A stretch of DNA of 64,000 bases from Sphingobacterium bambusae (GTDB lineage Bacteria; Bacteroidota; Bacteroidia; Sphingobacteriales; Sphingobacteriaceae), in contig NZ_CP138332.1 of the NCBI RefSeq assembly GCF_033955345.1, forward strand, positions 1,612,001 to 1,676,000, in the 5' to 3' direction. Positions 9,707 to 29,962 of this stretch are shown one piece after another. The notes beneath the pieces are model-generated. The model was not told the DNA's origin. It saw only the letters and a list, made by a program, of their open reading frames with translations, and ran no database searches. How positions within the stretch are numbered: the first letter of the stretch is position 1; each line of letters begins with the position of its first letter. The translations under genes were made by a program, and so were the position numbers.

Positions 9707-10750
9707 ATGGGGTTCCTTCAAAATAGAGATCGCTATCCGTTGAAATACTGGGTAAAAAGAAGTGCCATCTTTTCGCTATGTATCGTTTCCATTCTAGTGA
9801 TCGATTCATTGTACAAAGATCAAGGCCGTTTCTGGCTCAACACCGGAATTGCCTTCGCTGGCCTTTTCGGTGTCATTATTTGCAATCTTATTTTGCATGT
9901 ACATTTCGATGTCAAGGATCCTATAAAATCGCCAATCAAAGTCAAGGTTTTTGGTTATTTTCTAACCTTCGGCATCTGTCTAATGATGTTGACCTTCTCC
10001 GCGAAGTTGGGTATGTTGACACATGAAGAATGTCGTATCATACAGGGATCACCAATCAACTTCTTTTTATTGTGCGGCTTTCGTGCTGCCATCCTAGATT
10101 TTATCGTGCTGCTATGGCTGTATTTCCTGATGAACGATTATTTTAAAAATCAGCTGGAGCTCGAGCGATCAAAACTTGACAAGCTAAAGGAGCGGGCTGT
10201 CAACCAAATGCTTCGCCAACAGGTGCAGCCACATTTTCTTTTTAATGCGCTTTCCAGCTTGAAGTCGCTGATCAAGAAGGACAGTATGATGGCAGAGTCT
10301 TACCTCCTACAGCTCTCCGATTATCTACGCGGTAGTTTTATGACTTCTGACGATGGGCTAGCGACCGTAAAGCAGGAATTGAAACTCTGTGAAGACTACC
10401 TATCGATGCAAAAGATTCGGTTCAAAGAAGCCATCCAATATAAAATTTGCGTATCGGAAGAAACATTTAAAGCCCATCTGCCAATCTTCTCCTTACAACC
10501 GCTGGTGGACAATGCACTGAAACACAACCACTATACTATTGAAAGTCCTTTGCATATTGACATCACCCAAGAGGATGGTTGGATTATTGTGCGTAACAAT
10601 GTATGCGCACGAAAAATCGCAACCGAGGATAACAATAACTATGGTCTAAACAACCTGAAAGAACGCTTTAGTTACTATCTCAGGGATAGTGTTATCATCC
10701 GTGATCAAGGGCTCTGTTTCGAAGTACATGTTAAAATTATCCATACATGA
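9707..10750 (+). CDS. LytS/YehU-type sensor histidine kinase
   Basis: The 347-aa protein has four predicted membrane helices in residues 15-145, then a coiled linker and the His_kinase (PF06580) motif QVQPHFLFNALSSLKSL with the phospho-acceptor His, then an atypical ATPase domain (PLVDNALKHN as N box, YGLNNLKERFSYYL as G box). It has no large sensor domain, so the signal is probably sensed in the membrane. It overlaps the LytTR regulator by four bases (ATGA), a standard pair in Bacteroidota. Confidence 0.93.
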   Translation: MGFLQNRDRYPLKYWVKRSAIFSLCIVSILVIDSLYKDQGRFWLNTGIAFAGLFGVIICNLILHVHFDVKDPIKSPIKVKVFGYFLTFGICLMMLTFSAKLGMLTHEECRIIQGSPINFFLLCGFRAAILDFIVLLWLYFLMNDYFKNQLELERSKLDKLKERAVNQMLRQQVQPHFLFNALSSLKSLIKKDSMMAESYLLQLSDYLRGSFMTSDDGLATVKQELKLCEDYLSMQKIRFKEAIQYKICVSEETFKAHLPIFSLQPLVDNALKHNHYTIESPLHIDITQEDGWIIVRNNVCARKIATEDNNNYGLNNLKERFSYYLRDSVIIRDQGLCFEVHVKIIHT

Positions 10751-26796: not shown

Positions 26797-26826
26797 TTTG
26801 CATGTAGCGAGTATTTGCTATATTTG
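26797..26826 (+). promoter_or_regulatory. Promoter of tRNA-Met
   Basis: TTTG at 26797-26800 is followed after 18 bases by TATATTTG at 26819-26826, matching both elements of the Bacteroidota promoter. Transcription would start near 26831, eight bases before the tRNA. Confidence 0.7.
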
Positions 26827-26838
26827 CATCACGAAAAC

Positions 26839-26912
26839 GGCGGGGTAGCTCAGATGGTTAGAGCGCAGGATTCATAACCCTGAGGTCGGCAGTTCGATCC
26901 TGCTCCCCGCTA
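26839..26912 (+). tRNA. tRNA-Met (anticodon CAU)
   Basis: A 74-nt cloverleaf: acceptor GGCGGGG pairs with CCCCGCT (one G-U end pair), D arm GCTC/GAGC, anticodon arm 27-43 with loop TTCATAA giving CAU, T arm GGCAG/CTGCT with loop TTCGATC. CCA is not encoded. The paired first base distinguishes it from initiator tRNA, and the acceptor stem differs from tRNA-Ile2, so elongator Met is the best call. There is one A-C mismatch at the base of the anticodon loop. Confidence 0.93.
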
Positions 26913-26914
26913 CA

Positions 26915-26948
26915 AAAAGCAGACACCAAAGTGTCTGCTTTTCTTTTT
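26915..26948 (+). terminator. Terminator of tRNA-Met
   Basis: AAAAGCAGACAC at 26915-26926 pairs perfectly with 26931-26942 around CAAA, followed by CTTTTTT. Confidence 0.9.
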
Positions 26949-26968
26949 TAAAAGGGTTGAGATACATA

Positions 26969-26988
26969 GTTAGAGCGCAGGATTCATA
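26969..26988 (+). repeat. Partial copy of tRNA-Met (20 identical nt)
   Basis: Bases 26969-26988 are identical to 26857-26876 of the tRNA, covering part of the D arm and the anticodon loop, 112 bases downstream. The flanks diverge, so it cannot fold as a tRNA. It may be an attachment-site scar left by an integrative element, or a local duplication. Confidence 0.7.
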
Positions 26989-27219
26989 TCGGATCAAGCA
27001 GAATCTTTGGCATCATACCGAATTCTTGGGGGCGATAAAGGGTTCTTGACCAGCAGTAATGGATCCTTTAGTGATCTTGCAGCTGTTTGCCACCCTTCTG
27101 GCCAAGAAAGAGATACACGGCATACGTCGCAGCATATATACTATCGTATAAATGCGCCTATTTATTGGTTAAAGATGATAGCTTTCTCTCTTGAGCTGCC
27201 TACGATTGCGCGCAAATAC

Positions 27220-27561
27220 CTAGCAAATAAACTGTAACAGCTATCTGTTCTGTCAAACATGCTAGGACGTTGAACAAAACACCTAGAACTTCTTTTCTAA
27301 ACTCTAGCTGTTTCTTCGCAAGTGCTAGCTTAATTTTGCTAAATGCTAGCATGTAGGTCGTAACACCTAGCATGTCTTCCAGAAAGTCTAGCATTTCCTT
27401 TGAACATGCTAGCATTATTCTCAGAACACCTAGCACTTTTATTAAAACATCTAGCACTTCTATGAAAACAGCTAGAACTTTTGTTAAAACACCTAGCACT
27501 TTTGTCAAAACAGCTAGCACTTTTTACAGAAATGCTAGCATTTCTGTAAAAAGTGCTACAG
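27220..27561. repeat. 21-bp tandem repeat array, 16 units
   Basis: From 27220 to 27555 the sequence divides into 16 units of exactly 21 bp. Fifteen start with CTAG and one with CTAT. The later units (27430-27534) are best conserved: CTAGCACTTTT, a variable spacer, then AAAACA. Around each core the sequence is roughly symmetric (AAAACA-NCTAG-CACTTTT), so every unit is a weak palindrome. There are no unique spacers as in CRISPR. The period equals two turns of B-DNA and also seven codons; both strands carry a long open frame through the array. Function unknown. Confidence 0.9.
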
Positions 27562-27567
27562 TTTTTT
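27515..27567. repeat. 44-bp perfect palindrome with T6 tail
   Basis: Bases 27515-27558 are a perfect palindrome with no spacer, formed because the 14th array unit is the exact reverse complement of the 13th, centred on GCTAGC (27534-27539). It is followed by CAG and TTTTTT at 27562-27567. It could terminate plus-strand transcription through the array or extrude as a cruciform. Confidence 0.85.
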
Positions 27568-27714
27568 CAAACGAACAAGGCAGCCATTTATCGGCCTTCA
27601 AACCTATTTAAACGCATGTTTTAAGCTAAAAAGTAGGAAAAATGAGCCAAGCATATTTTTTGAGGTTTGTAGCATTTTGGCTCGATTATCCTAGTTTTAC
27701 TAGCCGTGATCTTG

Positions 27715-27722
27715 TAGCTTTG
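27715..27722 (+). promoter_or_regulatory. Preserved -7-like box ahead of a gene remnant
   Basis: TAGCTTTG fits TAnnTTTG and is followed by CACCCCC. It lies 62 bases before the reading-frame remnant at 27784. No good -33 element at 19 bases was found. Confidence 0.35.
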
Positions 27723-27783
27723 CACCCCCAAAAATCCAAAGAGTGGATTATAAACATACAGACGAATATAGTTGTTCGAATAA

Positions 27784-27918
27784 AATCTCTCCAATGAGGT
27801 TCAGTCTGCTTTCCGTGCGCTCCCAAAATCGAATGTTTTGGGTTTGCTAAATGCGGCGGCAACCTATATTCTTGAAGATGCGGAAAAAGTCGATTTACGT
27901 AATCCATTTCTTCCTTGA
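27784..27918 (+). pseudogene. Gene remnant, 44 codons plus stop
   Basis: The frame reads NEVQSAFRALPKSNVLGLLN and continues with AAATYILEDAEKVDLRNPFL before a TGA, a natural-looking helical protein stretch quite unlike the surrounding frames. There is no start codon in frame; upstream stops occur at once, so it is the end of a broken gene. The family is not recognised. Confidence 0.4.
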
Positions 27919-28316
27919 AACAAATAGTCGATTATTTTTCTTCAAGCCCAAAACTTTTGAACATAATCCGATTTTTTTTTCACGAAGCCCCTCTCCAATT
28001 TCCTTACTACCATGATAGGAAATGGGATAAGTCCTCCCATCTTTCTCACAAATGTAGCGAGATCCGCTGATGCGGATATGGTCACAGCCGACTCAAAAAA
28101 AGCAAAATTTGTCGGTTTTTGTTTTTAAATGAGATTAGACAACACCCTCCTTTGCCGCAAACCTAGCGTCAAAATCGAGAAATTAAAGAGATCTTTCGTT
28201 TACCATCGCTAAAACTTTTGACATTTCCCACCTATTATTCGCATCTTAGTCGAGAAATAAATCATACGAGGTTTCAGGAAAATTGGTCAGCACTCCGAAA
28301 CACTTTCCCATCATGA

Positions 28317-28454
28317 TCAAAAGAAATTATTACCATCATTGGTAACGAGTTTGCATCTATCCATGATGAGAATGTTGGTCCTTTAAGGTTAAACCACCTG
28401 TATGTAACTAAAGCTAGCGAGATCTATCGAAGACTGACATCAATAAGTATCTGA
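28317..28454 (+). pseudogene. Possible gene remnant, 45 codons
   Basis: The frame reads KEIITIIGNEFASIHDENVG and continues GPLRLNHLYVTKASEIYRR to a TGA, with protein-like composition. It has no start codon and a stop directly upstream. It may be a fragment of a decayed mobile gene. Not recognised, and chance cannot be excluded. Confidence 0.3.
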
Positions 28455-28531
28455 GAACAAAGATTTACTCAGTCCTACGATTTACGGAAACTTTTGGAAC
28501 ATTTCTCCTGTTAACACATTAAACTAAGCAC

Positions 28532-29962
28532 ATGAAAACATCGTTTTTTACAGAGAAGGCCTATATAAATGGCAAATTTGTATCGGGTAAAAAAAAGTTT
28601 CCAGTTGTCAATCCGGCCAACGGTAAGACGATCGGTTCTGTACCGGATCTAACGGTTGCGGATTGCAAGAAAGCCATCGATGCGGCAGAACAAACATGGC
28701 AGTTTTGGAAAGAAACATCTATTGGTGAGCGCTGCAAAGTAGTCAGAGGCATTTTTGATTTGATTAACGAGCACAAAGATGAACTGGCTGAAATCATGAC
28801 TAAGGAATGTGGAAAGCCCTTAACAGAATCTTTAGCAGAAGTGGATTATGCCAACGCCTTTATGGAATGGTTTTCCGAAGAAGGCAAACGTGCCTACGGA
28901 GAAACCATCCCCTCCTTGAAAGGTGATATGCGGTTGAGCACAATAAAACAGTCCGTGGGTGTTGTAGCAGCCATCACGCCGTGGAACTTCCCGTTAGCCA
29001 TGATTACGCGCAAAGTAGCTCCAGCATTGGTCGCCGGCTGCACTATCATTGTAAAACCAGCTTCCCAAACACCATTTTCGGCTTTAGCGCTAGCCAAAAT
29101 CGCCGAACTTGCAGGCCTACCCAAAGGTGTCCTGCAGGTGATCACCTCCACTGATAGCCGCGGCATAGGAAAAGAGTTGGCGAGCAATCCAACAGTTCGT
29201 AAGATAACATTTACCGGATCCACCGCAGTAGGCAGCACCTTGATGGCGCAAGCCGCCGGAACGGTAAAGCGTTTGTCCATGGAACTTGGCGGCAATGCCC
29301 CTTTCATTGTGTTCGACGATGCAGATATAGAGAAAGCTGTTCAAGGCGCTATTGCGGGCAAATTCAGAAATGCTGGCCAAACTTGCGTGGCCGTCAACCG
29401 TTTCTACATTCAAGAAGGCGTCTACGCACGTTTTGCAGAACGCTTAACACATGAAGTCAAGAAGCTACGTATAGGCGATGGTATGAAGAAGAATATACAA
29501 ATAGGACCACTTATCAACCGAGCTGGCTTAGAGAAGGTGCAAGAACACCTTTCGGACGCGATCGGGAAAGGTGCCATCGTTTCCTGCGGAGGAAACAACA
29601 TAAAAGACTTGTTTTTTGAACCCACTGTGCTAACCAACGTCTCCTACGATTCGCTTATCGCTAAGGAGGAAACTTTCGGTCCCGTCTGTGCGCTGTTCTC
29701 GTTTAAGACCGAAGAACAAGCCGTCACGCTAGCGAACGATACTCCCTTCGGTTTAGCCGCTTACTTCTACTCGTCGAATGTATATCGGTGTCAACGGGTT
29801 GCAGAAAAGATTGAATCAGGGATGGTTGGCATAAATACAGGAATGGTATCTAACGCCTCTGCGCCATTTGGGGGAATAAAGCAATCAGGACTGGGCCGCG
29901 AAGGCGCGAAACAAGGTTTAGAAGAATATCTGACCACAAAATATATCTGTTATGGTACCTAG
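28532..29962 (+). CDS. NAD(P)-dependent succinate-semialdehyde dehydrogenase-like aldehyde dehydrogenase
   Basis: The 476-aa protein has the ALDH landmarks: ITPWNFPLAM and VKPASQTP in the cofactor domain, the TFTGSTAVGS turn, general-base Glu in ELGGNAPF, and the nucleophile Cys in NAGQTCVAVNR. The sequence is closest in pattern to GabD-type succinate-semialdehyde dehydrogenases, which feed succinate to the TCA cycle from GABA, but other semialdehydes are possible. It is single, with no GABA transaminase beside it, and ends in a strong terminator shared with the convergent barrel gene. Confidence 0.9.
   Translation: MKTSFFTEKAYINGKFVSGKKKFPVVNPANGKTIGSVPDLTVADCKKAIDAAEQTWQFWKETSIGERCKVVRGIFDLINEHKDELAEIMTKECGKPLTESLAEVDYANAFMEWFSEEGKRAYGETIPSLKGDMRLSTIKQSVGVVAAITPWNFPLAMITRKVAPALVAGCTIIVKPASQTPFSALALAKIAELAGLPKGVLQVITSTDSRGIGKELASNPTVRKITFTGSTAVGSTLMAQAAGTVKRLSMELGGNAPFIVFDDADIEKAVQGAIAGKFRNAGQTCVAVNRFYIQEGVYARFAERLTHEVKKLRIGDGMKKNIQIGPLINRAGLEKVQEHLSDAIGKGAIVSCGGNNIKDLFFEPTVLTNVSYDSLIAKEETFGPVCALFSFKTEEQAVTLANDTPFGLAAYFYSSNVYRCQRVAEKIESGMVGINTGMVSNASAPFGGIKQSGLGREGAKQGLEEYLTTKYICYGT

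Follow-up and report, generated by a model that had tools for sequence, protein, structure and literature searches.

Evidence that a 21-bp tandem array in Sphingobacterium bambusae belongs to a gene-less copy of an Fn3-family control region

Introduction

Plasmid iteron and centromere arrays are built of direct repeats lying near two helical turns apart, and the tandem half-sites of AraC/XylS regulators come in twos, with a centre spacing of 21 bp. The 21-bp array described here, in a 64,000-nucleotide stretch of Sphingobacterium bambusae DNA (the whole of which we call the window), and its relatives at other loci are unlike the plasmid arrays in that they are chromosomal, occupy many loci with differing sequences and go with a gene family, promoters and RNA genes. 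Moreover, the ORFs around the window array, judged by eye, are unlike replication or partition genes. With AraC/XylS sites the arrays of the gene family share the 21-bp spacing, and an AraC gene often adjoins them, but unlike a pair of half-sites they are long, and no AraC-specific signal was found in them.

Two described systems come closest. BvgA~P dimers at ptx sit at 22-bp spacing on one face of the DNA, on individually weak sites (PMC7250471). The BvgA~P arrays at ptx and fha of Bordetella share two-turn spacing with ours and lie, in that system, upstream of the promoter; ptx has six BvgA sites at 22 bp and the window about 16 units at 21 bp; and a single regulator is involved there, whereas the Sphingobacterium arrays have locus-specific units and are known from sequence alone. 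BvgA at ptx is the closest working analogue that we found, and it shows how a strict period can go together with a loose sequence (PMC7250471). For the dispersed element of which the window array is part, the closest analogue found is BrickBuilt of Porphyromonas gingivalis, which is described as a MITE with 23-nt units, present in one species group and having small inverted-repeat ends (PMC4596501). Like BrickBuilt, our element is a dispersed intergenic minisatellite with a leader and a tail, whole-unit expansion and contraction, and promoter elements; unlike it, our element has 21-bp units, a tie to a gene family and locus-specific sequence, and no terminal inverted repeats were found in its window copy (PMC4596501).

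The coupling to a gene family through locus-specific units appears in neither the BvgA nor the BrickBuilt account, in the portions of both that were available. Such arrays were likewise absent from the open-access PMC literature searched, within the extracts that it offered. To our knowledge, conserved spacing with non-conserved sequence has seldom been described in bacterial regulatory DNA.

The window array and its surroundings

The array occupies positions 27220-27555 of the window, where we counted the sixteen 21-bp units, 15 of them opening with CTAG, that an earlier note on this DNA had reported. The features of the region are as follows.

26839-26913, plus strand: tRNA-Met (CAT), neighbour of the element, called by ARAGORN and matched by Rfam tRNA
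26968-26988, plus strand: second copy (20/21 nt) of tRNA-Met positions 26856-26876, directly preceding the element, read from the sequence
27009-27868, no strand assigned: dispersed element (type A) of leader, 21-bp array, inverted repeat, putative promoter and tail, from comparison of genome copies
27220-27555, no strand assigned: 21-bp array of 16 units, read from the sequence
27515-27558, no strand assigned: perfect palindrome from the last two units, then a T-run (terminator-like), read from the sequence
27634-27650, plus strand: left arm of a long inverted repeat, 15/17 pairs with the right arm by eye
27677-27693, plus strand: right arm of the same repeat, read from the sequence
27715-27722, plus strand: TAGCTTTG, a match to the Bacteroidota -7 consensus, 21 bp past the inverted repeat

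The units are contiguous and have no spacers, which bears out the earlier statement that this is not a CRISPR locus. The one unit opening otherwise is the second (27241), with CTAT, and a partial 17th unit at 27556 opens with CTAC; the columns that are invariant in 16/16 units are CTA (phases 0-2) and the A of phase 16. The 21-bp period was also recovered by TRF. The 64-kb window contains 130 CTAG in total. Chance does not account for the phasing: the pattern CTAG-17N-CTAG-17N-CTAG occurs 97 times per strand genome-wide versus 2 for the reversed pattern, its positions among the matches listed corresponding to five arrays.

The array does lie downstream of a tRNA, as previously stated: tRNA-Met ends at 26913, 306 bp before the array starts. 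The duplicated stretch of this tRNA just before the element is a possible integration scar. Sigma-70-type promoter matches in 26800-28600 were no more numerous than in shuffled sequence (3 versus 4.7), and a plasmid search gave, in the 20 best of 44 records, matches confined to the tRNA.

A dispersed element and its copies

The type A element is a segment of about 860 bp that combines the array with an inverted repeat and a putative Bacteroidota-type promoter, without a conserved gene. Six copies are present in the genome: the window copy, four other long copies found at 85-90% identity by a genome search with the window array region, and one remnant (L016), which by its coordinates is short of about 294 bp, or 14 units. 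The same search also gave further, more distant CTAG arrays. The lack of indels noted earlier is true of the window copy, and across the five aligned long copies the only indels within the array are of 21, 42, 63 or 84 bp, the flanks having 1- and 5-bp indels. The number of units differs between copies. The ends of the element are ragged among copies, and no terminal inverted repeats of at least 12 nt pairing both ends of 26990-27890 were found in the window copy. The L009 copy has about 240 bp of extra sequence in its tail (near 10211-10446), missing from the window, L010 and L011 copies, which extends a minus-strand reading frame.

By a 150-bp cut-off that was chosen post hoc, three of the six copies neighbour a tRNA gene (tRNA-Met in the window, tRNA-Pro at L010, tRNA-Asp at L012) and a fourth (L011) neighbours the SRP RNA. 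For 3/6 copies, proximity to a tRNA has a chance probability of about 3e-4 (66 tRNA genes in 45 clusters), assuming that one tenth of the genome (intergenic) is open to insertion. Rfam, applied to eight stretches of the same genome, gave tRNA and SRP RNA and nothing else.

At E 1e-5 the element was unmatched in 59 other Sphingobacterium genomes. The possibility raised in the earlier note that the array is unique to this strain, with unit number varying freely, is half borne out: the type A sequence has no match in those 59 genomes and its copies differ in unit number, but the kind of array is widespread.

An Fn3 gene family with similar upstream regions

Three of the more distant CTAG arrays sit upstream of a 202-codon gene or truncated versions of it. 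The gene is intact at L014, where an AraC-family gene lies upstream of it, and truncated at two other loci. The family protein, of about 205 aa, has N-terminal helices and a C-terminal fibronectin-III (Fn3) domain, and its AlphaFold2 model is helical plus Fn3 with a pLDDT of 86. Among the matches listed, the 50 PDB entries similar to the model are Fn3-type or receptor domains, and the 50 viral proteins, several of them without a name, are for the most part tail and fibre proteins with Fn3 domains. Pfam fn3 was found in 8/22 family members at E 0.1, other Pfam matches being weak; NCBIfam gave single weak matches, PHROGs matched one member each in three families, and PADLOC had no match for the 4 proteins submitted. 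The family is present in 26/60 Sphingobacterium genomes, with up to 13 matches per genome, and its alignment matches 35/149 Bacteroidia genomes, some of these matches being Fn3 domains of large proteins. The libraries gave no function beyond Fn3 for this multi-copy Bacteroidota family, on which the array, should it prove to be a binding platform, would give a handle.

We took 80 family genes of Sphingobacterium with 1.5 kb upstream and used 79, L165 being dropped for want of a tblastn match. A second set comprised 39 of 40 loci drawn from ten further Bacteroidia families (19 genomes; L214, at a contig edge, was left out), with gene starts set by a longest-ORF rule that may be wrong for some (e.g., L231 and L239). 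Within 200 bp before the gene, 49/79 Sphingobacterium loci have a long inverted repeat, versus 1/79 shuffled. Downstream of it, mostly at 19-23 bp, 36/49 loci have TAnnTTTG, which we take to be the Bacteroidota -7 consensus; raw counts of this box within 100 bp of the start are 55/79 in Sphingobacterium and 3/39 in other families. The control region consists of a 21-bp array, then a long inverted repeat (in Sphingobacterium), then a putative Bacteroidota-type promoter box. The placement of the TAGCTTTG box in the window, which is common to all five long copies, resembles that at gene-bearing loci. That the window feature is a gene-less copy of an Fn3-family control region is well supported.

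Period kept, sequence not

In the 79 Sphingobacterium upstream regions, autocorrelation is 0.38-0.40 at lags 21, 42, 63 and 84 and 0.25-0.29 at all other lags from 3 to 99, the mean showing no half-period peak at 10 or 11. Inside the family genes, lag 21 gives 0.279 and does not stand out from the other multiples of three, which reach 0.281. The 39 other-family loci peak at the same lags, with 0.36-0.40 versus a mean of 0.28 over lags. When loci were taken singly, a period of 21, 42 or 63 exceeded 60 shuffles in 72/79 Sphingobacterium loci, in a test that unrelated periods pass in 8.6% of cases. Under a strict threshold, such arrays were found in 63/118 upstream kilobases (34/79 Sphingobacterium and 29/39 other-family loci), and 6 had another period only. 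Control stretches from relatives, 400 kb hand-picked away from listed family matches, gave 11 array loci when every period is counted and 2 when the period is 21, 42 or 63, a contrast that is not matched per kilobase because the controls include coding DNA and the upstream kilobases are largely intergenic. Neither of the two adjoins a detectable family gene. Evenly sampled, 400 kb of the own genome gave 6 distinct array loci, of which 2 have period 21 and one of these is a family locus; 251 kb of own-genome stretches gave nine strong arrays, all of period 21, in a set that includes the window and whose other stretches were mostly chosen because they matched.

Unit sequences vary by locus, their likeness being mainly among close orthologues. 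The CTAG core emphasized in the earlier note is real in the window array, but it is not a general feature, other loci having other cores. Some loci have periods of 20, 22, 41 or 44, about two or four turns and not codon multiples. That the period is kept where the sequence is not suggests that the spacing of the arrays, rather than their letters, is under selection. In addition, the unit profiles are quasi-palindromic more often than permuted profiles are, in 38/65 arrays at p<0.05 (mean z 2.2; arrays scoring at least 12). Locus L235, which has masked letters, was excluded here and from the curvature and open-frame tests below. These signals point to sites of a dimeric protein two turns apart over coding or bending.

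How the array is bound we infer. With slightly better than even confidence, we read the window feature as a gene-less dispersed copy of the control region, with an array that would form a same-face, two-turn platform for an oligomeric DNA-binding protein and work like BvgA at ptx. Dimers of this protein would be seated every two helical turns on one DNA face and would be mutually cooperative. Because the dimers would hold each other in this way, spacing would be constrained while single units were free to drift. The protein-filled array would load the adjacent promoter, and solo copies would titrate the array-binding protein or bring the promoter to other sites. The earlier note had already suggested that spacing is under selection and that the array is a same-face, multi-site binder of protein, and this still appears to fit best, the period outlasting the sequence, coding being rejected and units being often quasi-palindromic. 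Against the platform stand the substitutions within the array, about as frequent as in the right flank among the five copies, the solo copies, which precede no conserved gene, and the strict threshold, passed by only 34/79 Sphingobacterium loci. Should the array be a binding platform, the family would offer dozens of natural variants in which pitch can be weighed against sequence in DNA recognition.

We also propose, more tentatively, that in Bacteroidia small Fn3 genes may each have a private, fast-evolving array in which the two-turn pitch is nearly always kept, read by an oligomer that recognizes pitch over sequence (or by a fast co-evolving partner at each locus), with solo arrays near RNA genes as outposts.

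Alternative explanations

The alternative that survives best, although we consider it doubtful, is a neutral minisatellite within a MITE-like or segmental repeat, expanding and contracting by slippage or unequal exchange and having no function beyond its spread. It would account for the dispersed copies, for their variable ends and leader and tail, and for the gain and loss of whole units, and the layout of BrickBuilt with its 23-nt units is similar (PMC4596501). It is also favoured by the substitutions between the five copies, which at 0.05-0.11 per site in the array do not fall below those of the right flank (0.04-0.09; left flank 0.01-0.30). However, one period in unrelated sequences is not expected of a neutral process, and periods of 21, 42 or 63 are found in 2/11 control array loci versus 63 family loci, against 6 with another period only. 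Nor were terminal inverted repeats, such as those of BrickBuilt, found at the ends of the window copy.

It is unlikely, in our view, that the arrays are the cognate sites of a neighbouring AraC-family regulator, each paralogue having its own site. Pfam detected the AraC-type HTH_18 domain in 43/78 upstream ORFs scanned in Sphingobacterium, an AraC gene is present at the intact CTAG locus of the own genome, and in other families at least two LuxR-type and at least one LytTR-type domains were seen among 32 upstream ORFs scanned (32 of the 39 loci). Array scores are higher beside AraC than without (median 17.3 versus 8.9, p 0.02), with labels assigned by regular expression to 42 loci (Pfam 43), at least L121 being wrong and L114 and L118 missed. 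The 21-bp spacing of AraC/XylS half-sites fits as well. Yet arrays are also present in 32/37 loci that the labels class as having no AraC nearby, and after correction of the labels by eye in 41/43 AraC loci versus 31/36 without. Likewise, unit similarity follows AraC-domain similarity overall (Mantel p 0.002; 37 AraC-labelled loci with array scores of at least 7), but this correlation is lost in the same 37 loci once gene relatedness is removed (partial Mantel p 0.11). Furthermore, quasi-palindromic units fit symmetric dimers better than the direct half-sites of AraC. The neighbouring AraC regulator as binder of the array is a candidate, not the answer.

Improbable, too, is a hairpin-forming DNA or RNA, in which the long inverted repeat and the palindromic units would fold to act as attenuator, terminator or recombination site. 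The perfect 44-bp palindrome and T-run at the end of the window array speak for it; by eye, the stem changes in the L010 and L012 copies are paired, L009 has one mismatch and L011 lacks the palindrome. The arms of the long inverted repeat also covary: 13/20 pairs are changed on both sides (0/500 shuffles as high), with a covariation score of 0.361 versus 0.106 in shuffles, both measures being inflated in that loci were chosen by pairing. The alignment contained 32 loci (29 distinct) of the 42/79 that pass a 20-nt-loop rule (15/20 pairs), leaving out loci with other arm types (L098, L099, L101, L107, L112, L113, L123 and L126) and two whose repeats are array palindromes (L162 and L163). Against hairpins, the inverted repeat is 5' of the -7 box wherever a box was found and therefore should be outside the gene's own mRNA. 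Rfam matched the tRNA alone in 26800-28600 and had no hits in 7 related loci; a long inverted repeat was found in 0/39 other-family loci, most of which have arrays. The inverted repeat and its covariation count for the control-region reading as well.

The earlier note had also entertained a phased bend, since 21 bp is two turns. We regard an intrinsically phased bend as very improbable and reject it: predicted curvature, calculated with wedge values, is no higher than in column-permuted arrays (mean z 0.03 over 57 arrays, 3 above 1.64 and 3 below -1.64), although the window itself has a z of 1.4. These 57 arrays, also used for open frames, comprise the window and those that score at least 14 over a length of at least 168 bp. 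A heptad-repeat protein gene, suggested by a 106-codon minus-strand reading frame over the array (27200-27520) and akin to the conserved protein gene considered previously, deserves practically no credence and was rejected, since the 33 columns that vary among the five copies over units one to ten fall 11/11/11 by codon position, open frames occur in 18/57 arrays versus 21.2 expected from column permutation, and some loci have periods of 20, 22, 41 or 44. Small reading frames within such arrays are likely to be spurious.

Arrays away from family genes and minor observations

The association between the Fn3 family and the arrays is strong but not strictly upstream because of three loci. A highly homogeneous array of thirty 21-bp units separates convergent genes past an operon with an Fn3-family gene (L018 8346-8978; G000:C1:5508346-5508978). 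Another, of 27 units, lies downstream of an Fn3-family gene (L284 8874-9448; G000:C1:5248874-5249448); several of its reading frames are open, on either strand, and its unit resembles, by eye, the leader of the window element at about 27035-27060. The third 21-bp array has no detectable Fn3-family gene nearby (L266 12738-13084; G000:C1:937738-938084); by eye it is like the L160 array, and it may be a solo copy belonging to a second type of array.

In a distant family, a CTAG-cored 21-bp array was seen with no Fn3-family match within 3 kb (L036 1312-1567; G038). A CTAG match in G005 lies inside a long reading frame and looks unrelated. Direct repeats of 10 bp, about one helical turn, are found just 5' of Fn3-family genes at L283 (7541-7595) and L284 (7854-7919). 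Finally, genome G044, with ten Fn3-family matches, has GATC every 21 bp (the reversed control pattern) in 17 matches per strand, and this is perhaps another array core.
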